A stretch of DNA of 39,834 nucleotides from Oscillospiraceae bacterium. GTDB taxonomy: Bacteria > Bacillota > Clostridia > Oscillospirales > Oscillospiraceae. Location: NCBI GenBank assembly GCA_017502285.1, contig JAFVVH010000008.1:1-39834 (forward strand), in the 5' to 3' direction. The notes below the pieces were generated by a model that did no database searches, was not told where the DNA came from, and saw only the letters and a program-made list of their open reading frames with translations. Below are positions 2,931 through 25,747 of the stretch, in pieces; position 1 is the first letter of the stretch; each line of letters starts with the position of its first letter. The translations under genes and the position numbers were made by a program.

Positions 2931-4295
2931 TTACATGACCAGCTCGATGTCCATCATCTTGCAGAAGTCGCGGATCTCCTCCACAAAATCACCGTAGGCC
3001 AGAATGACGTGCTGGCAGGAGACGTTCTGGGCAAACTCCTCCACGGTGCAGCTGTCGGGGAAGACCTCCAGACTGGGCAGCTGGGGAGCGGGATCGTCCC
3101 AGCCAAACTCGTTCCAGGCGGGAGGAGTCTTGGCCTCGGCAGTGTAGACGTGCATCTTGTACTTGCCCTTCAGGAACACCAGACGGGCGCAGGTGACGTA
3201 GCCGGTCTTGACCTTGGACACGTTGAGCAGAGAAGCATTCAGCAGGCCGAAGGCGGCGGGCAGTACGGTCACATCGCCGTCGGTGACGCAGGCGGGCACA
3301 TAGTCGGGCACACCGATGAGCATGCTCTTCTCGAAGAACTCGTAGTACTCCATGTAAGGCACGGTCTGGCCGGACAGCCCCTTCATGATGATCTGGGTCA
3401 CAGCGCCCATTACGTCGTTTTCAGGCACAGTGGGAATGTTGTGGTAGCGCTCAATGAGCATGAACACCATGGCGGGAGGGAAGCCCATAAGCTTCTTCAT
3501 GCCGTCCACGTCGATCAGGGTGATGGCATCCCAGCCCCGCTCGGCGATCTTCATGCCAATAGCCAGCGCGTACTTGACGCCGTTCTCGATGACGCTGTCA
3601 TCACAGGCCTTCTTGAACACCCAGTTCTCCTTAACGAACTTCACACCCTCGGCCACCTGAGCGGGATCCAGCTTCTCCATGTTCTGGACCATTTCTAGCA
3701 TCTCGAAGGGCTCTACTTCGATACCGATCTGGCTGCGCATGGAGTTGCCCTCGTACTGGGTACCGTAGAGCAGCATGTCGCGGTAACCCATAGTACCCAC
3801 GCGAGCATCGCGCAGGGCGCGGCGGGTGGCGGCGGCACGCAGATAGGCATCGATCTTCTTCATGGGGAAGGGCTTGTCGATGATGTTGTAAACATACTTA
3901 AAGGTGTAATCCAGTGCCTCAAAAGCGGGACGCAAAGCGGTGGTACCGGCCTGCTCGGCGGTGGTGATGATGCGGCCGTTCTCCTTCCAGCCGCACAGGC
4001 CCCACAGCACCATGGGAATGTGACGGAAGTGGTCAGTAACGCGGATGACGGCATGGGTGGGCACCCAGCCGGCCACGCAGATCACCAGCGCGCTGAGATC
4101 CTCGCCCTGGATCTTGGCCAAAGCGGCATCCGCGGTCTCATAGGCGGGGTCGTCGATGACCAGACCGCCGTCTACAAAATCATAGTCCAGCGCCTTCAGG
4201 GCGGCCAGAGCCTCGTCATGCTTCATCTGCAGACGCTCGATGGGGGTGTTGACCTCACCGAAGCAGACATAACCGATGCGGGCTTTCTTGTTCAT
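2931..4295 (-). CDS. L-fucose/L-arabinose isomerase family protein
   Basis: This 454-residue protein has the overall form of the L-fucose/L-arabinose isomerase superfamily, ketol isomerases that interconvert aldoses and ketoses with a divalent metal. The N-terminal half has the family's stacked alpha/beta folds (RIGYVCFGEVNTP; WGLCGWKENGR near residue 100). The C-terminal half has PENDVMGAVTQIIM, which lines up with the conserved metal-ligand acidic segment. The family histidine-glycine motif near the C-terminus is not obvious: the comparable stretch is SMLIGVPDYVP. A changed active site or substrate is therefore likely, and I give no specific sugar. AAAGGAGA lies just upstream of the ATG. 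The gene stands alone, with its own promoter and a palindrome in the leader. Confidence 0.8.
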   Translation of the reverse strand: MNKKARIGYVCFGEVNTPIERLQMKHDEALAALKALDYDFVDGGLVIDDPAYETADAALAKIQGEDLSALVICVAGWVPTHAVIRVTDHFRHIPMVLWGLCGWKENGRIITTAEQAGTTALRPAFEALDYTFKYVYNIIDKPFPMKKIDAYLRAAATRRALRDARVGTMGYRDMLLYGTQYEGNSMRSQIGIEVEPFEMLEMVQNMEKLDPAQVAEGVKFVKENWVFKKACDDSVIENGVKYALAIGMKIAERGWDAITLIDVDGMKKLMGFPPAMVFMLIERYHNIPTVPENDVMGAVTQIIMKGLSGQTVPYMEYYEFFEKSMLIGVPDYVPACVTDGDVTVLPAAFGLLNASLLNVSKVKTGYVTCARLVFLKGKYKMHVYTAEAKTPPAWNEFGWDDPAPQLPSLEVFPDSCTVEEFAQNVSCQHVILAYGDFVEEIRDFCKMMDIELVM

Positions 4296-18272: not shown

Positions 18273-19070
18273 ATGGTTACAAAAGCAGATATTATTTCCC
18301 AACTGACCCAAATGCGCGCGCCTACGGACAAGATCGTGCTGATGCACTCCTCCCTTCGTGCCGTCGGCCCGATAGAGGGCGGAGCACAGGCTCTTCTGGA
18401 CGCGCTGGTGGATTATTTCACCCGGGACGGCGGTCTGTTCTGTGTACCCACCCACACTTGGCACAATCTGGACAAAGAAATCACGCTGAACATGTCCGAC
18501 AGCGACAACTGTCTGGGTGCTTTCTCCACCGTGGCCCTGGAGGATGGACGGGGCCTCCGCTCGGAAAGCCCCACCCACTCCATGGTTGTTTTTGGTGACC
18601 GAGCAAAGGCTGAAAAGCTCATTCAGGATGAACCCCTTGTCACTACACCAACCGCTCCCAACAGTTGCTACGGAAAGCTTGACTTTATTCTGTTGGTCGG
18701 TGTAGCCCAGAACCGAAACACCTATCTGCACTGTGTGGACGAAATGCTTTCTATCCCCAACCGAATGGAAGAAAAAACCATGCCGCTGACCATCCGCAGA
18801 ACAAACGGCGAAGTGGTCACCCGACCCACTGCCCTGTTTTATACAGATTACATCGAGGATATTTCCGACCGCTTTATCAAGTATGACACCCCTTTCCGTT
18901 ACCACAGGTGTATTACCGACGGTTTTATTGGCAATGCCCCCACCCAGCTGTGTAATGCCCGAAAAATGCGGGACACCATTGCCTTGATTTGGAACAACAG
19001 CGGTGGGATCGATCCCCTGTTCAGTGAAAACCCTATCCCACAGAAATGGTACTGTACCCACGACATTTGA
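18273..19070 (+). CDS. AAC(3) family N-acetyltransferase
   Basis: This 265-residue protein belongs to the aminoglycoside 3-N-acetyltransferase family (Antibiotic_NAT, also B. subtilis YokD). Markers are VLMHSSLRAVGPIEGG near residue 22, the PTHTW segment, ESPTHSMVVFGDRA with the conserved histidine region, and LLVGVAQNRNTYLHCVDE. Members acetylate aminoglycosides or other amines with acetyl-CoA. Chromosomal forms like this are often poor resistance enzymes, so resistance should not be assumed. The ribosome site is weak (TTGGAATG). It starts the accessory region behind the tRNAs and is followed 46 bases later by the metallo-hydrolase gene, perhaps in one transcript. Confidence 0.88.
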   Translation: MVTKADIISQLTQMRAPTDKIVLMHSSLRAVGPIEGGAQALLDALVDYFTRDGGLFCVPTHTWHNLDKEITLNMSDSDNCLGAFSTVALEDGRGLRSESPTHSMVVFGDRAKAEKLIQDEPLVTTPTAPNSCYGKLDFILLVGVAQNRNTYLHCVDEMLSIPNRMEEKTMPLTIRRTNGEVVTRPTALFYTDYIEDISDRFIKYDTPFRYHRCITDGFIGNAPTQLCNARKMRDTIALIWNNSGGIDPLFSENPIPQKWYCTHDI

Positions 19071-20070: not shown

Positions 20071-20727
20071 TCACATCTTGGCTGACACGATCATAGTTGC
20101 CACTTCTTCTCTTGTGGCAAAGGACTGAGGGCGGGTTCCGTCGGTGATTCCCAAGCGCTTGGCCTCGGGCATTTTACCCCAGGGGCTCTCCGGGCGCTCA
20201 CTCTGGCGGGCCAGCCAATCTGCCATGAGATTATCAAACTGCAGTTGGGTCAAGATTTCTTCCTCCTCATAGGCGGGGCGGTACGCCCCAACGATGTACT
20301 TTTTGTGTCGTGTGCGGCGCATGACTGCACCGCCATTAGCCTCGTTGCCGCTGCCGGTATTTCCGTCAATGGTGGTGATATACTCACCGTCCCACTTTTC
20401 GCAGATACCCACATGAGCAGCGCTTGTCTTCCCGGAGAAATTGAAGAAAATCACATCCCCCGGGCGATAGTCCCCCCGCACTCCCTGCTTCTTGTGATAG
20501 GTCAGCAGGGTCGGGCAATAAGCCGTGCGGCCACCCCCATAGAAAAGCGCAGACGCACCCGCCTGTTGAAACAGCCACCACACAAAGGTGCAGCACCAGG
20601 GATAGCCTGCCCCGGACACCTCACGGCCATAGTAGGCGGTGTTGTATTTGACTTTGTTGCTCCCGGCAGGCCGCTCGGTCATACCAAGTTCCCCGCGGGC
20701 CAGTGTCAGCAGCATGTCAGCCGTCAC
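20071..20727 (-). CDS. Phage-type CHAP-domain endolysin
   Basis: This 218-residue protein has a CHAP (cysteine/histidine amidohydrolase) domain that cuts peptidoglycan. The catalytic cysteine is in GYPWCCTFVWW (Cys45 or Cys46), the histidine is His105 in AAHVGICE, and DGNTG follows. The C-terminal 60 residues (LMADWLARQSERPES, GITDGTRPQSFATREEVATM) form an SLH-like segment often found at the end of clostridial phage lysins, probably for wall binding. The start is a GTG with GGAGGGG eight bases upstream, inside the preceding holin gene, which it overlaps by 11 bases. It has no signal peptide, so release depends on the holin genes next to it. Confidence 0.92.
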   Translation of the reverse strand: MTADMLLTLARGELGMTERPAGSNKVKYNTAYYGREVSGAGYPWCCTFVWWLFQQAGASALFYGGGRTAYCPTLLTYHKKQGVRGDYRPGDVIFFNFSGKTSAAHVGICEKWDGEYITTIDGNTGSGNEANGGAVMRRTRHKKYIVGAYRPAYEEEEILTQLQFDNLMADWLARQSERPESPWGKMPEAKRLGITDGTRPQSFATREEVATMIVSAKM

Positions 20728-21028
20728 AGGCTGTCCCCTCCAGCTGCCGGTGCAGCTTCAGCACCGCCGCTTCCACCGCGTCCACTACCGCGCCGTTGTC
20801 CACATCAAAGCCCTTTTCCTCCAGCACCGACAGGGCATACTCCAGCCGCTGCTGCCCGGAGCACTGGTGGTACAGCTGCTGAGCCGCCGCTACGGCAATA
20901 TCCACCCAACCCAACAGTTCCTTGCGCTCCTCGGCCGTGGTCTTGCTGCTCAGCCAGGGCAGCAGGAACACAGTGACCACTGCCACCGCCAGCGCGATAA
21001 CCGCCTCAAGAATACTCGTAATGTCCAT
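20717..21028 (-). CDS. Phage holin, LLH-like
   Basis: The 103-residue protein starts with a single hydrophobic helix (ILEAVIALAVAVVTVFLLPW, about 6-25). A soluble helical part with a family-like pattern follows: ERKELLGWVDIAVAAAQQLY, then RLEYALSVLEEKGFDVD. This is the layout of LLH-type holins (Lactobacillus phage LL-H). The function would be to permeabilise the membrane and let the endolysin out. The ATG at 21028 follows AAAGGAAAAAACGGAAG. Its end overlaps the endolysin gene and its start overlaps the preceding membrane-protein gene by 23 bases. Confidence 0.82.
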   Translation of the reverse strand: MDITSILEAVIALAVAVVTVFLLPWLSSKTTAEERKELLGWVDIAVAAAQQLYHQCSGQQRLEYALSVLEEKGFDVDNGAVVDAVEAAVLKLHRQLEGTACDG

Positions 21029-21245
21029 CTTCCGTTTTTTCCTTTCTGTTTTGTTTTTGCAGGGCGTTGCGGCCAAACATCAGGGCCAGCTCGCCCCCGA
21101 AAAAGGCCAGCACGGGGGCCAACAGGCCTCCGGCATCCTGCCCCGTCCGGGACAGGATGCGCATAGCCCACAAACTGCACAGCGTACCCGCCGCCACACA
21201 CCAGACCACCATCACCTTGCCAAACAGGTGGGGTATGTTCCTCAT
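21006..21245 (-). CDS. Small holin-like membrane protein
   Basis: This 79-residue protein has two hydrophobic segments (about 10-28 and 38-58) and a charged C-terminal tail (KQNRKEKTEDGHYEYS), the plan of a class II holin. I take the ATG at 21245 because it overlaps the stop of the XhlA-like gene as ATGA, a usual coupling device. No specific family is recognised; its place between an XhlA-like protein and an LLH-like holin makes a role in lysis likely. It could also be an antiholin. Confidence 0.7.
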   Translation of the reverse strand: MRNIPHLFGKVMVVWCVAAGTLCSLWAMRILSRTGQDAGGLLAPVLAFFGGELALMFGRNALQKQNRKEKTEDGHYEYS

Positions 21246-21541
21246 ACTGCCAGCCCCGCCCGGCTCAACAGCCACGTCAATACAGCAGTGGCCGTCACCA
21301 GCACCAGCTTATTTACAAGCTCATCCCAGCGCTTTGCTGGTTTCGCCTCCAGCGCGGTGACTTTGCCGTCCAGCTCATCCACCGCGTCGGCTACCCGCTC
21401 CTGTTTTTCCGCCATGACCTCCATGGAGGTAGCTAGACGGGTGAGCACCTCGGTAGAAGTCTCCAGCTTTTCAATGCGGTGCTGGTTGGACTTGGCCCGT
21501 TCCTCCACCTCGGTCAGGCGGTGCTCAATGCTCAGCTCCAT
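21242..21541 (-). CDS. XhlA-like coiled-coil membrane protein of the lysis module
   Basis: The 99-residue protein has a long heptad-patterned helix (about 3-68, HRLTEVEERAKSNQHRIEKL and the following heptads) and one membrane segment at the C-terminus (VLVTATAVLTWLLSRAG). This is the form of XhlA, which in PBSX-type elements works with the holin and amidase in lysis. Its ATG follows the previous stop by one base, and GGTGGGGGTGA is the ribosome site. Confidence 0.75.
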   Translation of the reverse strand: MELSIEHRLTEVEERAKSNQHRIEKLETSTEVLTRLATSMEVMAEKQERVADAVDELDGKVTALEAKPAKRWDELVNKLVLVTATAVLTWLLSRAGLAV

Positions 21542-21542
21542 C

Positions 21543-21749
21543 TCATGTCACCCCCACCATCTCACCTGGGACCTCATCCTCCGCCACAGCGTTCTTGGCA
21601 CTGATGGCGCTCTGGATCTCGGCAAGGTCCTCCTCGGTCAGAACGCCCTTCTCATGCCAGCTTGCGGCATTGAGGATAACCTGATAGTCTGCCATCTTAC
21701 CCACGGCCTTCAAAAATCCGTCCTTCACAAAGTTTCTCATACTGAACAT
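21543..21749 (-). CDS. XkdX-like small phage tail-region protein
   Basis: This 68-residue protein has MRNFVKDGFLKAVGKMADYQ, then VILNAASWHEKGVLTEEDLA. Such short proteins with a tryptophan/lysine turn and an acidic end stand directly after tail-fibre genes in PBSX-like phages (XkdX-like); the function is unknown. The first ATG (21749) overlaps the fibre gene's stop (TAATG), with GGGAGGT eight bases upstream; a second ATG at 21740 is possible. Confidence 0.72.
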   Translation of the reverse strand: MFSMRNFVKDGFLKAVGKMADYQVILNAASWHEKGVLTEEDLAEIQSAISAKNAVAEDEVPGEMVGVT

Positions 21750-22987
21750 TAGATGTTACCTCCCATAGAAATAATGGCCTGAGTCAGCTGCTCAAAAGCC
21801 TTGTTGATGTCCCGGTTGTATTCGCAATCAATGACAACACCGGGAGTGTCTGTCAATAGTGTGGTGGCAAACGCATAAGACGTTACTCCTTTCACCTTCC
21901 CGTCCGCATCCGGGGTATAGGTTTCTGCCTTGTAATGCTCATACATGCCCTTGGTGCTCTCATCAAAGACGCTGATGCAGATGTCGTTACCGTACTCGGT
22001 AATGGCCGCATTGCCCGTACCAACCGAACCGCCAATCGCAAACTTGATATATCCGTCTTGTGCAGGAGTGACAGCGCCGCCGGGGGCGGGGTAGGAGCTG
22101 TTGTATACCGTTTTGTTTGTGTCGTAAAATACGACCCGCGGCATCTGTGGGCATTGAATACGCAGTCTTACTCCCGCTTTGACGGGAATGCAGTTCTTGG
22201 AACGAATGGTGTCTGTTGAGCCTGCAGCGTTTCCACTGTTGTAAACAGTTCCCAGCTCCCACTGCTCGTCCCATAAATTCAGCCCCGTTTTCGTCAGCGT
22301 AACCGCACTAATATCCACGTTGGGATCTTCACTGCTCACCTTCACGGACAGTTCATGCTCCAGCGGACTTGCATCTTCCAAGAAGACCACAGGACCGCTT
22401 GCAGTCCCTACCAGAGCATTTGCGTAGAGGGTGTTTCCCTGCCGCACAGTCAACTCGCCGGGGATGCCCTGCAATCCTTGTTCGCCTTGCGGACCTTGCT
22501 CACCACGGCTGGGCTTTCCGGCATCCGTGTAGGTCGTACCGTCCCACTCCCACCAGTTGCCATTCTCTCCGATTACAGGCGGATGGGAGGCGTAGCCCTC
22601 GGCCTGCTTCACCTTCTCCGTGACCCTGCGCTCCATCTCTGTAAACTCACTGGGGATTTCGGGCCACTGCTTGTCCCCGGACAGAGAGGCAGGGATGTAG
22701 ACGTTGACGGTGTTGGTGTGCCGCACACGCTCGCCCTGAGTGGCTTTGAGTTGCATCTGATAGTAACCGGCAACAGACAACTGCCCGGCAGTCAAAACGG
22801 TACTCAGACCCTCCTCCGTCACCGTCAGAGGCAGAATATCCATAGCCTCGCCCACTTGCACCAGCATGGTCCAATCCCATCCGTTGGGGATGTCACCGAC
22901 CACGGTCAGTGTGCCCGTCAGGTTGTCAAACTGCCGGGCGAAAATATCGCCGTCGGCTTGAACAGTCCAGTTTTCAAATCGAATCAT
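21749..22987 (-). CDS. Phage baseplate/tail-fibre protein with collagen-like segment
   Basis: The 412-residue protein looks like a phage receptor-binding or upper baseplate protein. Its N-terminal ~110 residues (IRFENWTVQADGDIFARQFD, PNGWDWTMLVQVG) form a beta-rich domain like those that attach fibres to baseplates. A short helical linker follows, then NGNWWEWDGTTYTDAGKPS, a collagen-like triplet stretch (residues 162-178), and a large beta-rich C-terminal part that could bind cell-surface sugars. Collagen-like triplets usually mark a trimer. AAGGAGG lies seven bases before the ATG. No other tail gene is present, which is odd for a fibre. Confidence 0.78.
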   Translation of the reverse strand: MIRFENWTVQADGDIFARQFDNLTGTLTVVGDIPNGWDWTMLVQVGEAMDILPLTVTEEGLSTVLTAGQLSVAGYYQMQLKATQGERVRHTNTVNVYIPASLSGDKQWPEIPSEFTEMERRVTEKVKQAEGYASHPPVIGENGNWWEWDGTTYTDAGKPSRGEQGPQGEQGLQGIPGELTVRQGNTLYANALVGTASGPVVFLEDASPLEHELSVKVSSEDPNVDISAVTLTKTGLNLWDEQWELGTVYNSGNAAGSTDTIRSKNCIPVKAGVRLRIQCPQMPRVVFYDTNKTVYNSSYPAPGGAVTPAQDGYIKFAIGGSVGTGNAAITEYGNDICISVFDESTKGMYEHYKAETYTPDADGKVKGVTSYAFATTLLTDTPGVVIDCEYNRDINKAFEQLTQAIISMGGNI

Positions 22988-23031
22988 CCGTACACCTCCT
23001 TTCCCATTTTGTTAAACTGTTTTTTCCTCAT
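22984..23031 (-). CDS. 15-residue peptide coupled to the fibre gene
   Basis: A short open frame, MRKKQFNKMGKEVYG, starts at an ATG with a strong ribosome site (AAAGGAG) six to seven bases upstream. It ends with a TGA that overlaps the fibre gene's ATG (ATGA). Its own 3' part contains the AAGGAGG of the fibre gene. It may be a basic micro-peptide or a leader frame whose translation controls the fibre start. No homology can be judged at this size. Confidence 0.45.
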   Translation of the reverse strand: MRKKQFNKMGKEVYG

Positions 23032-23049
23032 AACGTTTTCTCCTTTCCG

Positions 23050-23376
23050 TTATTCCTGCATGCTCATCAAATAGCGTTGCGCCCCGTAGCGCAGACACTG
23101 CCGCAACCGTTTCTCTCCGCGCTTGATGGTGCGGCATACGGTCGATTTATTCACGCCCAGCGATGCCGCGATTTGCGGCTGACTCACTCCTTTTCCGTAA
23201 TAGAGCAGCAACATCGTTCGCTGACGGGGGCTCACATCCTCCCGGATGCATCGGAGCAGATTTTGTATCAGCTGGCCACGCTCCTGCTCATCTCCGTTTT
23301 CCTGCTGGACTTGACGCATATACATGGCCATGTCAGCTCGATAAGGCTCTGCACATCTATATTTTGTATTTGGCAT
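23050..23376 (-). CDS. Sigma-region-4-like phage regulator
   Basis: The 108-residue protein ends in a helix-turn-helix like region 4 of sigma-70 factors (about 62-98: LLLYYGKGVSQPQIAASLGV then NKSTVCRTIKRGEKRLRQCL). No region 2 is present, so it is not a full sigma factor. Small proteins of this type (ArpU/late-gene activators) turn on late operons in many Firmicute phages. It lies directly upstream of the fibre-lysis genes. GAAAGGGGC precedes the ATG, and the gene overlaps the previous one by 20 bases. Confidence 0.8.
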   Translation of the reverse strand: MPNTKYRCAEPYRADMAMYMRQVQQENGDEQERGQLIQNLLRCIREDVSPRQRTMLLLYYGKGVSQPQIAASLGVNKSTVCRTIKRGEKRLRQCLRYGAQRYLMSMQE

Positions 23377-23590
23377 TGCGACAATAGCCCCTTTCGTAAT
23401 ATCGTTCGCACACCACTGCCACGTCCCGTGTCTCCCGATACATGGCCGTAAGCGTTTCGATGCGCAGCTCCAATCCGCGCCGCACCTGCGGGTCTTCAGT
23501 CTGTGCCCACTCCTGCTTCAGCCGGGCAATGCGCACCGCCAGAATATGGGCGCTGTTTCGGTAAGACACGGCCAGTTCCTTCAGTTTCAT
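23357..23590 (-). CDS. Small helical phage protein
   Basis: This 77-residue protein is predicted to be almost wholly helical (SYRNSAHILAVRIARLKQEW, then RGLELRIETLTAMYRETRDV) and ends with CERYYERGYCRNAKYKI, a tail I associate with small phage proteins coded just before sigma-like regulators in this bacterial group. It could be a partner of the regulator, since the genes overlap by 20 bases. AAGGAGGTGGATGG before the ATG is a strong ribosome site. Function unknown. Confidence 0.68.
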   Translation of the reverse strand: MKLKELAVSYRNSAHILAVRIARLKQEWAQTEDPQVRRGLELRIETLTAMYRETRDVAVVCERYYERGYCRNAKYKI

Positions 23591-23602
23591 CCATCCACCT
23601 CC

Positions 23603-23833
23603 TTACAACACCCGCATCTCCACGCCCAATGCCGCCGCCACCTCCCGGCTGGATTCTTCCAACCAGACTGTGACCACCCTTTTGAAGCAGTCCGGACAAA
23701 TTTGCCTGTCCTCCCACATATAACCCATTTCGCCCGGGTACAGCTCACCGCCGCACCGCATACACAGGCCCACGTCTCTCCCGTCCTGTTGGTCCGTCAG
23801 AGCCGGGTGCAGTCCCGGTGTTCCCCGCAACAT
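23603..23833 (-). CDS. Small zinc-ribbon phage protein
   Basis: This 76-residue protein carries two cysteine pairs, CMRCGGELYPGE and CPDCFKRV, separated by a short aromatic stretch (YMWEDRQI), which is a zinc-ribbon pattern. A helical part (VTVWLEESSREVAAALGVEM) ends the chain. It is the first sizeable gene of the minus-strand phage operon, 12 bases before the helical protein. A role as an early regulator or anti-repressor is possible, but nothing shows it. Confidence 0.65.
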   Translation of the reverse strand: MLRGTPGLHPALTDQQDGRDVGLCMRCGGELYPGEMGYMWEDRQICPDCFKRVVTVWLEESSREVAAALGVEMRVL

Positions 23834-23878
23834 AGCCTCACTTCCTCTCTCATCCCCTTTTATGGGACCGTTTTTCTG

Positions 23879-23974
23879 TTATCTTTTTCTTGCCAGTTTT
23901 GTTGCTCCAGAGTTCCTCTTCTTTTTGTTGACTTTGGCATTCACCCATGCTACAATGGTAACGGAGTTCATCAT
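23879..23974 (-). CDS. Possible 31-residue basic peptide
   Basis: An open frame (MMNSVTIVAWVNAKVNKKKR and eleven more residues, ending LARKR) lies on the minus strand between the operators and the zinc-ribbon gene, inside the leader of the phage operon. The ribosome site is poor (AACGAGAA) and the frame is antisense to the repressor promoter. Its hydrophobic-then-basic composition could be chance. Confidence 0.25.
   Translation of the reverse strand: MMNSVTIVAWVNAKVNKKKRNSGATKLARKR
23928..23956 (+). promoter_or_regulatory. Promoter of the Xre repressor-ImmA unit
   Basis: TTGACT (23928-23933) and TACAAT (23951-23956) are spaced by 17 bp. The transcript would have a leader of about 140 bases that crosses the operator-like repeats. 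Confidence 0.75.
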
Positions 23975-23987
23975 TTCTCGTTCATAT

Positions 23988-24067
23988 GATTACGTATTTC
24001 ATCTTTTGCATCATACTACCACAGCCCAACCGTAATCGTCAACCCCGTTTTGATTACTTTCGTAATC
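23988..24067. promoter_or_regulatory. Operator-like GATTAC/GTAATC repeats
   Basis: Half-sites occur at 23988-23994 (GATTACG), 24031-24037 (CGTAATC) and as a full inverted repeat at 24052-24067 (GATTAC-TTTC-GTAATC). They surround the predicted minus-strand promoter and precede the repressor gene, which is where a Xre-family repressor would bind. Confidence 0.65.
24013..24042 (-). promoter_or_regulatory. Predicted lytic-type promoter of the phage operon
   Basis: On the minus strand TTGACG (24042-24037) and TAGTAT (24018-24013) are 18 bp apart. The operator half-site 24031-24037 touches the -35 and the inverted repeat lies just upstream, so repressor bound there would block it. Confidence 0.5.
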
Positions 24068-24102
24068 TTCGTCTGTCTGCACAAAAACTGGAGGTTCGTT
24101 TT

Positions 24103-24438
24103 ATGTTTTCTGACCGCTTTGAATCACTGTGCCGGGAAAAGGGTGTCCGTCCGGGTAAGGCCTGTCAGGAGATGGGTGTTAGCCGTTCCCTTGCCGCAAA
24201 ATGGAAATCCACCGGAACGGAAAAGCCCAGCGCCGATGTTCTGGAGAAAATGTCTGCCTATTTTGGCATGAGCATTGATGAAATTCTGGGCAAGGAATCT
24301 GCCGCTCCTGTCACCTTCGACGACTTTACCTATGCCATGCACAACGAAACCCGAGACCTTCCCCCGGAAAAAAAGCAGATGCTGCTGGATATGGCCCGCT
24401 TTTTCAAGGAAGAGCTGCAAAAGGAGAAAGGACAGTAA
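24103..24438 (+). CDS. Xre-family phage-type repressor
   Basis: The 111-residue protein has an N-terminal Cro/CI-type helix-turn-helix: RFESLCREKGVRPGKACQEM, then GVSRSLAAKWKSTG, then LEKMSAYFGMSIDEILG by about residue 65. A short helical C-terminal region follows. The ATG is chosen for GGAGG seven bases upstream; longer upstream frames lack one. It is followed two bases after its stop by an ImmA/IrrE protease gene, the same pair as ImmR-ImmA of ICEBs1, in which the protease cuts the repressor after DNA damage. It should repress the divergent phage operon. Confidence 0.9.
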   Translation: MFSDRFESLCREKGVRPGKACQEMGVSRSLAAKWKSTGTEKPSADVLEKMSAYFGMSIDEILGKESAAPVTFDDFTYAMHNETRDLPPEKKQMLLDMARFFKEELQKEKGQ

Positions 24439-24440
24439 GC

Positions 24441-24869
24441 ATGGAGAAAATTCTGACCCTTTATGATGAACTGAACCGCGCCGGGGTCAGGTTCTACCAC
24501 TGGGATTTGGATGACGGTCAGGCCTGCACTGTGGAAATGAACGGACAGTACGGAGTGTTCATGGATTTTGGCAATATCCGCACTGCCGCGGAGGAACTGG
24601 TAGCGGTCGCTCACGAGGGCGGTCACGTATCCACCGGCTCTACCCACAAGGTGAGTAGCCCCTACGACCTTGTTGCAAAGCATGAATACAAGGCCGACAA
24701 GTGGGCGGTGCAGAAACTCATCTCTGCCGACGCGCTGGATGCGGCGGTAGCGGATGGCCACACGGACATCTATTCCTTGGCCGAGCACTTTAACGTCACG
24801 GTTCCTTTCATGAAAAAAGCCGTGTGTCTGCATACACACGGCAATCTTGCATCGGACCTGTATTTCTAA
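24441..24869 (+). CDS. ImmA/IrrE family metallopeptidase
   Basis: This 142-residue protein has the zinc protease motif HEGGH (58-62) and a downstream glutamate in HEYKADKWA (Glu82) as the likely third ligand, both hallmarks of the ImmA/IrrE (COG2856) family. Relatives cleave Xre-type repressors and so start induction of mobile elements. It lies two bases after the repressor gene, clearly co-translated. The protein is compact and ends with a helical region after FNVTVPFMKKAVC. The expected target is the neighbouring repressor (inference from ImmR/ImmA). Confidence 0.9.
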   Translation: MEKILTLYDELNRAGVRFYHWDLDDGQACTVEMNGQYGVFMDFGNIRTAAEELVAVAHEGGHVSTGSTHKVSSPYDLVAKHEYKADKWAVQKLISADALDAAVADGHTDIYSLAEHFNVTVPFMKKAVCLHTHGNLASDLYF

Positions 24870-24910: not shown

Positions 24911-25747
24911 TCAATCAAAGGCCAGTCCCAAATAGGGGACTGTTTTTTTATTCCATTTAGGTTGCTGTGTCAGCCACTTAAGCATGGCGAAATCCCATCT
25001 TTCCCCCTGCACATAGGGTCCACGCACCCAATACCGTCTGGCCGGGAGCTCCTTTGCAATGGCACTCAGTGCAGCTTCCCGCTCCTGTGGGGGTGTGAGC
25101 AGTTCCTTGATGAACGCTTCCTCCCCCGCCAGCTCCACACAGGCACAGCCCTGCTCTCCTACCCGGTACAGTCCTCCCCCGGACAGGGCGCACACACCCG
25201 CCTGATATTCCAGCGCTTGCGGGGCATAGGCAACATGGTCCGTATGGTCCAGCAGCTGTTCACGCAGTATATGATACTGTTGTGCGTCCACCTGCTCCAG
25301 CTGAGTGGGCAGCACCTCCAACCGGGGTTGGTATTGCTCCTGCTGCAAGGCAAAGCACTCTTCAAACCCATTGCGCCCAAAAAAGACATGCAAGTCCTCA
25401 CGGGCAGGGACTGTGCTGACACAGGCAAAGCCCCGTTCCTTCAGCCAGTGGTCGGCAAAGGCCAGCAGCTGTCCGGCCAGTCCCCTGCCTCGGCAATCGG
25501 GGTGGGTGGCCACAGCATAGAGATAGGCGCAGGACCACTCTGTTCCATCCGCAAACACCACCGGCATGTCAAACCACGCGGTCATGGCCAGCACTATGCC
25601 TGCCTCCTCCAGCACCAACACCCGCTCCGGGGCATAGTAGCGGGTGAAAAAGTGGTCGATATAGGCATCTTCATCCCCAAAGGCCAGCTTCCACAGCTCC
25701 TTGAGCCGGGGTACATCTGTCCATTCAGAGGCTCTTAATTCAGCCAT
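24911..25747 (-). CDS. GNAT family N-acetyltransferase
   Basis: The 278-residue protein has an N-terminal GNAT domain with the acetyl-CoA-binding motif HPDCRGRGLAGQLL (from residue 82). FFGRNGFEECFALQQ is the usual closing strand of the fold. The second half (about 160-278) looks like the additional domain of Eis-type double-domain acetyltransferases. The ATG before AELRASEWTD follows AGGAGGAG. The substrate is unknown. It lies downstream of the PspC gene on the same strand but behind a terminator. Confidence 0.86.
   Translation of the reverse strand: MAELRASEWTDVPRLKELWKLAFGDEDAYIDHFFTRYYAPERVLVLEEAGIVLAMTAWFDMPVVFADGTEWSCAYLYAVATHPDCRGRGLAGQLLAFADHWLKERGFACVSTVPAREDLHVFFGRNGFEECFALQQEQYQPRLEVLPTQLEQVDAQQYHILREQLLDHTDHVAYAPQALEYQAGVCALSGGGLYRVGEQGCACVELAGEEAFIKELLTPPQEREAALSAIAKELPARRYWVRGPYVQGERWDFAMLKWLTQQPKWNKKTVPYLGLAFD

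Follow-up and report, generated by a model that had tools for sequence, protein, structure and literature searches.

Why should a bacterial chromosome keep a phage-type switch in front of a fibre gene and lysis genes, with no genes for a virion beside them? The question is raised by contig JAFVVH010000008.1 of a bacterium of the Oscillospiraceae, a family that lives in guts; the contig is a stretch of 39,834 nucleotides that was analysed whole and is called the window below. It is contig G000:C50 of a metagenome-assembled genome (MAG), G000, of 1.49 Mb and 78% completeness. Between positions 20071 and 24869 the window holds a cassette in which genes for an Xre-family repressor and an ImmA/IrrE protease diverge from an operon for a sigma-region-4-like activator, a fibre protein and lysis proteins. 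We consider it likely, with a probability of roughly 0.8, that the cassette belongs to a domesticated phage particle with a contractile tail, of the gene transfer agent (GTA) or PBSX type, whose genes lie at several loci of Oscillospiraceae chromosomes; it would be the arm for regulation, receptor binding and lysis. The sequence evidence is that the cassette recurs without structural genes, that a core structural cluster lies elsewhere in the same genomes, that a palindromic promoter element is shared between loci and that the sigma-like gene co-occurs with the capsid gene.

Organisation of the cassette

The cassette comprises eleven open reading frames (ORFs), all intact when the frames were re-checked. 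The Xre and ImmA/IrrE genes are on the plus strand and the others on the minus strand. E-values below are from Pfam (PF), PHROG (phrog) and NCBIfam profile searches. PADLOC found no defence system. Lengths are in amino acids (aa).

20071..20727, minus strand: CHAP-domain endolysin, 218 aa, last gene of the lysis arm (PF05257, 1.4e-11; phrog_21357, 1.9e-31)
20717..21076, minus strand: LLH-superfamily holin, start probably at 21028 (103 aa) (PF09682, 7.5e-9; phrog_6918, 6.4e-25)
21006..21275, minus strand: small ORF, 79-89 aa, holin-like from its position alone (no family match in Pfam or PHROG)
21242..21541, minus strand: XhlA-like coiled-coil protein (phrog_937 'hemolysin', 8.7e-16; Pfam XhlA weak, 0.028)
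21543..21749, minus strand: 68-aa ORF at the fibre/lysis junction (no convincing family)
21749..22987, minus strand: receptor-binding/fibre protein (weak tail-collar, phrog_3449, 9e-6, and collagen, 0.068, matches)
23050..23376, minus strand: sigma-70 region-4-like activator (PF08281, 2.6e-10; NCBIfam 'positive control sigma-like factor' weak, 8.8e-7, far below cut-off)
23357..23590, minus strand: 77-aa partner, overlapping the sigma gene (no convincing family)
23603..23833, minus strand: 76-aa Zn-ribbon-like (CxxC..CxxC) protein (weak match to the uncharacterised phage family phrog_4331, 9.7e-5)
23834..24102, no strand: divergent control region with a promoter-like site in each direction and an operator-like palindrome, GATTACTTTCGTAATC (24052-24067)
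24103..24438, plus strand: Xre-family repressor (HTH_26, 1.1e-4; NCBIfam RstR-type, 1e-8, below cut-off; CapH resemblance, 1.2e-7, PADLOC)
24441..24869, plus strand: ImmA/IrrE metalloprotease with HEGGH as its HExxH motif (phrog_87, 1.6e-15; PF06114, 5e-4, just below cut-off)

An earlier interpretation, made from the letters alone (the sequence-only reading), had described intact frames with a regulatory and a lysis arm but no structural genes, and the coordinates and family matches agree with it. Its family labels stand for the endolysin, LLH holin, sigma region 4, ImmA/IrrE and Xre proteins; conversely, the 'holin-like' ORF has no family and the fibre matches are weak. It had also proposed divergent promoters. 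A promoter-like site is present each way, at 23928-23956 (plus) and 24042-24013 (minus), but such sites barely exceed those in shuffled sequence (4 versus a mean of 2.5). As for strong terminators at both ends, GC-rich hairpins with T tails can be seen by eye outside each end of the cassette. The terminator scan, which found 9 terminator-like sites where shuffled sequence has a mean of 5.0, listed only one of the two (24923-24942).

Genes for packaging, capsid, tail tube, replication or integrase were not recognised among the called genes of the window, the flanking genes being judged by sequence and not all by hidden Markov model. No integrase or recombinase was recognised in the cassette or those called genes (att repeats were not searched), and no sign of mobility was seen in the cassette. 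It is flanked by an MBL-fold gene on one side and a GNAT gene on the other (labels from sequence). The fibre protein has a conserved N-terminal part of ~170 aa and a variable C-terminal part. A 15-codon ORF with its own Shine-Dalgarno-like sequence (by eye) sits between the sigma and fibre genes (window 22984-23031, minus strand). It overlaps the fibre start (ATGA) and could be read as a leader or coupling peptide.

The cassette recurs in related genomes

A DNA search of 99 relatives matched 56, chiefly through single genes. Among the 64 genomes of the genus set, a strong ImmA match was found in exactly seven (G000, G024, G029, G033, G052, G053 and G057), all of them small (1.5-1.9 Mb). Five of the seven (G000, G024, G029, G052 and G053) have the full cassette order on one contig, over 4.3-5.9 kb. 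ImmA and Xre run one way; the 76-aa, 77-aa, sigma and fibre genes, extra small or fibre ORFs, holin(s) and endolysin run the other. The same order without structural genes, which the sequence-only reading suggested looking for, is therefore present in relatives. In G057 the fibre gene adjoins the sigma gene, and the lysis arm is of a different, amidase type. G033 has the regulatory arm alone, its fibre and lysis genes being on other contigs. The fibre gene directly follows the sigma gene in six of the seven genomes and an unrelated chromosomal gene does so in G033; hence, none of the seven shows a prophage's structural genes between activator and fibre. No complete prophage was seen at the cassette site in the seven genomes. 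The neighbours include DEAD, PspC and GNAT genes in G000 and G052, and DEAD and GNAT genes in G033 and, farther away, in G053.

The ImmA protein is 72-81% identical in the six other genomes, with HExxH invariant in 7/7 copies, and Xre is 83% identical in G024 and 36-60% in the other five. For the 76-aa protein identity is 40-49% in 6/6, G057 having just a match of E 4e-6 that is apart from the sigma gene. The fibre N-terminus is 41-58% identical in the same six genomes. The fibre C-termini vary among cassette species and include a GDSL esterase (G024), short forms with a second protein, and repeats; such divergence is the behaviour expected of a receptor-binding protein. In the lysis arm, endolysin homologues are 68-82% identical in G024, G029, G033, G052 and G053, and the XhlA-like protein is 84% identical in G024. 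The 79-89-aa ORF is conserved in G024, G033 and G053, and also in the stand-alone lysis operons of G041 and G021. The 68-aa product is 89% identical in G057. Two operator types track two Xre types across the cassette genomes: half-sites GATTAC/GTAATC in G000 and G024, and repeats of ACTCAATTGAGT (exact or near) in G029, G033, G052, G053 and G057.

Ratios of nonsynonymous to synonymous divergence (dN/dS) were estimated by NG86. Synonymous divergence was high, and pairs with saturated dS were removed; the fibre and XhlA genes had no usable pair. Median values were 0.10 for ImmA, 0.26 for Xre, 0.35 for the 77-aa gene, 0.20 for sigma, 0.17 for the 89-aa ORF, 0.21 for LLH and 0.10 for the endolysin. 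The dN/dS comparison that the sequence-only reading proposed thus gives low values for all usable medians (0.10-0.35). Because these values accompany a gene order that recurs in other species, the cassette is more than a chance assembly. It is a maintained unit and not a decaying one, as first suggested, and a recent deletion from a prophage seems an unlikely origin.

A structural cluster elsewhere in the same genomes

A baseplate-J gene is present in 63 of the 64 genus genomes, and reading its neighbourhoods revealed one compact cluster. This encodes small and large terminase subunits (TerS and TerL), portal, protease-like, decoration-like, capsid, sheath, tube-like, LysM, hub, spike-like, gp25-like, baseplate J and tail-I proteins. 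Gene order is constant in the loci compared, and the median span from TerL to tail-I is 12.4 kb (62 loci). The cluster is on a separate contig in G000 (G000:C21). In G029 it lies ~67 kb from the cassette on one 250-kb contig (G029:C6), so the association is not a binning artefact.

The capsid gene was found in 58 of the 64 genus genomes, as a fragment in G057 and at 73-100% identity in the others, with no internal stops. It is single copy, except for a second match in G099. A search with the capsid alignment was positive in 71 of 394 genomes of the order, from 42 of 168 genera. In the species collection, 517 stretches encode a capsid relative. The best 80 of these were kept, and their record titles include Flavonifractor, Pseudoflavonifractor, Lawsonibacter, Intestinimonas, Flintibacter and Oscillibacter. 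IMG/VR gave 320 capsid relatives, of which the best 80 were also kept. Many of these IMG/VR contigs (L184-L263) are ~13 kb long and appear to be the domesticated structural cluster alone, cut at its edges. All 94 full-length capsid matches are stop-free. Among 68 full-length TerL matches, G000 alone has an early in-frame stop, and L162 has one at the very end. Median dN/dS values for the structural cluster are 0.09-0.22 (TerL with 1 usable of 3 pairs, stop-bearing pairs being removed).

Sequence continues for at least 2 kb past the cluster in 46 loci. In these no match was found to the fibre, sigma, ImmA, Xre or 77-aa protein of the window, one each to its endolysin and LLH holin, and two to its XhlA; unrelated lysis or fibre families would escape such a search. 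Read gene by gene, the G000 cluster has a DacF-type gene on one side and HemW- and RluD-like genes on the other, names which we presume from the sequences, and no integrase or replication genes in the cluster or these neighbours. The divergent DacF flank is present in 36 of 60 loci that extend far enough to show it and missing in the other 24, including those from records titled Oscillibacter. Across 35 species the distances for capsid and for DacF are correlated (Spearman 0.65; 0/300 permutations as high), which is consistent with vertical inheritance of the cluster. Features by which GTAs are recognised were thus found: head, tail and packaging genes that are conserved and probably inherited vertically in a host lineage, in a cluster without integrase or replication genes. 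A bipartite tailocin was considered and rejected: the tail module on G000:C52 belongs to a complete prophage with its own lysis genes, and the core cluster has capsid and terminase.

The sigma-like gene and the capsid gene co-occur

A strong match to the sigma-like protein occurs once per genome in 54 of the 64 genus genomes, and a partial one in G030. In five species examined outside the cassette clade, the sigma and 77-aa genes (with a 76-aa-like ORF) are present without fibre or lysis genes. These core loci adjoin tRNA-like sequences (by eye) and a P-loop gene. The 77-aa gene adjoins sigma in the five core loci, in 5/6 other cassette genomes (it was not found in G057) and on phage contigs. 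Xre and ImmA were also considered as parts of the core system. This was rejected because a strong ImmA match is confined to 7/64 genomes and IMG/VR relatives include ordinary prophages.

Within the genus, capsid and sigma are concordant in 59 of 64 genomes (54 with both, 5 with neither, the partial G030 counted as present; Fisher 9e-5). Across the order, treating two draws of 394 as the same genomes, capsid is found in 20 of 22 sigma-positive genomes (E <= 1e-15) and in 51 of 372 others (Fisher 2e-14). Both p-values treat as independent genomes that are related by descent, and are to that extent too favourable. Genera g1, g34, g37 and g43 hold both states, with sigma and capsid varying together among the genomes listed. 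Genera g39, g47 and g51 do not fit this pattern.

The core loci for the 76-aa, 77-aa and sigma proteins (L044 12660-13320, L046, L049, L050 and L053) also have a TTGACA promoter-like site upstream (by eye). This site is followed by a palindrome that has a LexA-box-like GAACN4GTTC at its centre and is antisense to the tRNA-like sequences (by eye). SOS control of the core activator is possible.

A palindromic element precedes structural and many fibre/lysis genes

A dyad, TGnACGnnnnCGTnCAACTTTT, precedes TerS, and 43 distinct instances were collected by pattern. A matrix was built from these 43 TerS-upstream sites, and a score of at least 7 was taken as a site. Such scores are reached in 64 of 74 TerS/terminase-upstream regions, a count that is for this reason not independent of the matrix.

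Species without the cassette have stand-alone fibre/lysis operons. The dyad was found at 10 of 17 such gene runs and at 3 of 264 control runs (Fisher 7e-12), and one of the three control sites is itself before a fibre-like gene (G024, 168 aa). With column-permuted matrices (n=300), on average 0.63 of the same 17 runs had a site, and at most 4. The control value was obtained with the terminase intergenic region masked; unmasked it was 38/264, too high because a divergent gene has that region in common with the terminase. A version restricted to the first gene of each co-directional run was not significant (2/17; Fisher 0.11-0.18), and those runs often entered unrelated chromosomal genes. Runs without a site were L052, L065, L068, L073, L076, L077 and, at 6.8, L078; L068 and L078 reach at least 7 under a slightly longer matrix. 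Protein similarity had identified the fibre/lysis loci before the motif came to light, and the list of 17 was fixed after a first look at the motif matches. Left out of it were contig-end copies (L039, L054, L074 and L079), L064 (G033 fibre, no site), the prophage-like L081-L083, the cassettes themselves and G100.

Every one of the 17 genomes outside the genus with both sigma and capsid has the dyad; three of these genomes belong to other families. The dyad scores at least 7 in 7 of 23 sigma-negative capsid genomes, namely 22 of the 51 in the order draw plus G021 of the genus (Fisher 7e-6 overall). G000 has the exact dyad at just two sites, one ahead of TerS and the structural cluster and the other ahead of a 174-aa gene on C36. 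When 20 exact-site loci were fetched, one was this 174-aa gene, seven had the site before fibre/lysis-type operons (G009, G013, G025, G034, G035, G036 and G059) and three before DUF6291-like genes. Overall, fibre and lysis genes are behind the dyad in most species examined and behind the activator and Xre/ImmA in the cassette clade. The claim of the sequence-only reading that the switch controls only a fibre and a lysis module is probably too narrow, since co-occurrence and the promoter element link the sigma-like activator to the structural cluster.

The DUF6291-type genes are directly behind the dyad in three species (L303 357-773, L305 7914-8297 and L315 7487-7879), the family assignment being profile-checked on L303 only. 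Their product is a candidate extra member of the regulon.

Prophage and viral relatives, and a neighbouring gene

G000 also carries a complete prophage on contig C52 (L043 16033 to L041 11880), with a serine recombinase, terminase, capsid-type genes, baseplate J and an amidase lysis gene. Of all relatives found, its last fibre gene and the 69-aa gene after it are the ones nearest to the cassette fibre and 68-aa genes (78% identity for the fibre N-terminus and 98% for the 68-aa protein). As a side observation, this suggests exchange of receptor-binding genes between prophage and cassette. Proteins of the G052:C38 prophage resemble second fibre proteins of other cassettes (by eye). On viral contigs, Xre relatives are 46-51% and ImmA relatives 65-70% identical, and L265 and L266 carry an integrase-like gene. 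The ImmA relatives in IMG/VR are from three loci, ordinary prophages among them.

The 77-aa/sigma pair also has viral relatives. On IMG/VR contig L324 it has, at a distance of 1.7 kb, a DEAD gene with 78% identity to the one that neighbours the cassette in the window. On the near-identical phage contigs L322 and L323 it precedes terminase genes, with TerL 52-53% identical to that of the core cluster. On L325 and L326 a weak palindrome (8.7) is just after sigma.

Near the cassette, the window has an aminoglycoside 3-N-acetyltransferase family gene (Antibiotic_NAT; 18273-19070, plus strand), between a tRNA pair and an MBL-fold gene.

Alternative explanations

Several results weigh against a multi-locus particle. 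The palindrome is missing from the cassette (best score 4.3), so the link of the cassette to the structural cluster would run via the sigma protein. The exact dyad is not enriched genome-wide (59 matches versus 54 for a reversed control), 9 of the 20 exact-site loci adjoin unrelated chromosomal genes, and the 174-aa C36 gene is fibre-like by eye without family support. Within the family the dyad does not separate sigma-positive (14/14) from sigma-negative (4/5) genomes, the difference not being significant, and the L322/L323 phage lacks the palindrome (best score 2.3). G038 has sigma and a fibre/lysis locus without capsid or baseplate J. In G000 itself, TerL has a premature in-frame TGA after the Walker A motif (G000:C21, L084 ~3014-4243) and relatives are intact; DNA packaging may have been lost, or the stop may be an assembly error. 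Lastly, since the fibre N-terminus and 68-aa protein are closest to the complete prophage of the same genome, they could be borrowed from, or serve, that phage.

Three other explanations were weighed. A self-contained cassette without the palindrome could be a stand-alone domesticated lysis unit for suicide or release under stress, with the fibre as a relic or released decoy and the structural cluster unrelated. The resemblance of Xre to CapH fits this; CapH-type regulators are paired with a DNA-damage-activated protease. We regard it as unlikely, given that the fibre C-termini vary by species as in receptor-binding proteins, that fibre/lysis operons elsewhere carry the promoter element of the structural cluster and that sigma and capsid co-occur. 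Somewhat less probable again is a remnant of an ordinary temperate prophage after structural-gene deletion, or a reservoir of host-range and lysis genes that swaps fibre genes with resident prophages. The identities to G000:C52, the G052:C38 proteins and the viral relatives of Xre and ImmA, two with an integrase-like gene, would suit either version. Conversely, the compact order is kept in five species with low dN/dS, sigma and its 77-aa partner occur without fibre/lysis genes in five other congeners examined, and a complete prophage at the site was seen in 0/7 genomes.

A PICI-like phage satellite (PICI, phage-inducible chromosomal island) that hijacks helper virions is very improbable. Regulatory and lysis genes without structural genes, and a helper-type complete prophage in the same genome, are what it would predict, but no integrase, replication or packaging-interference genes were recognised in the cassette and its DEAD, PspC and GNAT neighbours are shared between genomes. 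The sequence-only reading had offered a satellite that borrows virions; structural genes do lie elsewhere, but they form a core chromosomal cluster of the same genomes, not a helper phage. The arm of a domesticated particle remains the reading we prefer.

Proposed mechanism

If the cassette is the control arm of such a particle, Xre would repress both divergent promoters. A stress signal, probably DNA damage, would activate ImmA and so remove Xre. Triggering by DNA damage is suggested by the Xre/ImmA pair; de-repression by ImmA has analogues in phage immunity and in CapH/CapP-type pairs. The leftward operon would then be transcribed to give the 76-aa, 77-aa and sigma-like activator proteins, followed by the receptor-binding protein, holins and endolysin. 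The activator would work in trans on the palindromes upstream of the terminase gene and of the small fibre-like gene and so switch on particle production, and delayed lysis would release the particles. These might package host DNA, as a GTA does, or kill kin in the manner of PBSX; we lean towards host-DNA packaging.

A wider proposal has, in our view, an even chance of being right. A scattered family of contractile-tailed GTAs would extend across Oscillospirales and be a source of unassigned capsid-packaged gut DNA, with one activator-palindrome regulon joining structural, receptor-binding and lysis loci. In one small-genome clade, the genes for lysis, binding and activation would have been fused behind an Xre/ImmA switch captured from a phage, and DNA damage, not a core regulator, would set the time of bursting and DNA sharing. 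The analysis supplies a candidate structural cluster together with a putative activator, a promoter element and a naturally rewired lysis arm, which opens control, release and gene flow to tests in isolates that can be cultured.

Comparison with known systems

Very few GTAs are known outside the Alphaproteobacteria (PMC12946183). Literature searches for this element with Flavonifractor, or with Oscillibacter and domesticated prophage, found nothing, and a broader search had none with 'gene transfer agent' among the matches listed. The element appears to work like a GTA or PBSX and is a candidate member of the GTAs. Contractile tailocins of Clostridia have a contractile tail, fibre, holin and endolysin, and no capsid, portal or terminase. 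Here, in contrast, capsid, portal, TerL and TerS are present.

In Caulobacter, the main CcGTA cluster and accessory genes are switched on by the activators GafYZ, which are themselves kept in check by the repressor RogA (PMC11150451); lysis depends on LypABC, encoded at a locus of its own (PMC13236601). RcGTA of Rhodobacter is reported to be driven by the dedicated activator GafA (PMC6363796, PMC9638019). Dedicated activators and accessory genes elsewhere are points of likeness, as are, for Caulobacter, a repressor over activators and separate control of lysis. The activators are of other kinds, however, and the hosts are Alphaproteobacteria. We know of no sigma-region-4/ImmA switch in front of a lysis operon in either system.

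Among published systems the nearest, compared by gene content, is FpGTA of Faecalibacterium prausnitzii (Borodovich et al., Nat Commun 2026, PMC12946183). Its structural operon (TerS, TerL, portal and capsid) is at one chromosomal place, and a second operon of ~5.5 kb elsewhere encodes baseplate, fibre, receptor-binding protein, holin and endolysin; structural and fibre/lysis loci are split in two, as here. FpGTA particles are podovirus-like with no tail seen, whereas sheath, tube-like, LysM and baseplate-J genes predict a contractile particle here. Passages of that paper describe no regulator ('regulator' and 'promoter' occur 0 times); here an Xre/ImmA switch and a sigma-like activator are added. 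The same source reports GTA-like packaging in Oscillospiraceae (Onthomonas; 3/25 events) without giving a locus, and a strong candidate GTA operon in one F. prausnitzii MAG only.

By analogy, the system that appears to work most alike is PBSX of Bacillus subtilis. PBSX has a contractile tail, an Xre repressor, the ImmA-like XkdA and XhlA lysis genes in one contiguous locus. It is GTA-like and packages 13.4-kb, evenly spread pieces of the chromosome (PMC12946183 and PMC9836290), and it has a sigma-like positive factor, Xpf (PMC9836290). A PBSX-like set of features is present here as Xre, an ImmA-type protease, a sigma-like activator and XhlA, holin and endolysin, the Pfam XhlA and NCBIfam sigma matches being weak. 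The difference lies in the layout: in place of the single contiguous locus of PBSX, in which structural genes come between the activator and the lysis genes, the functions are at separate loci, many of them joined by the promoter element.

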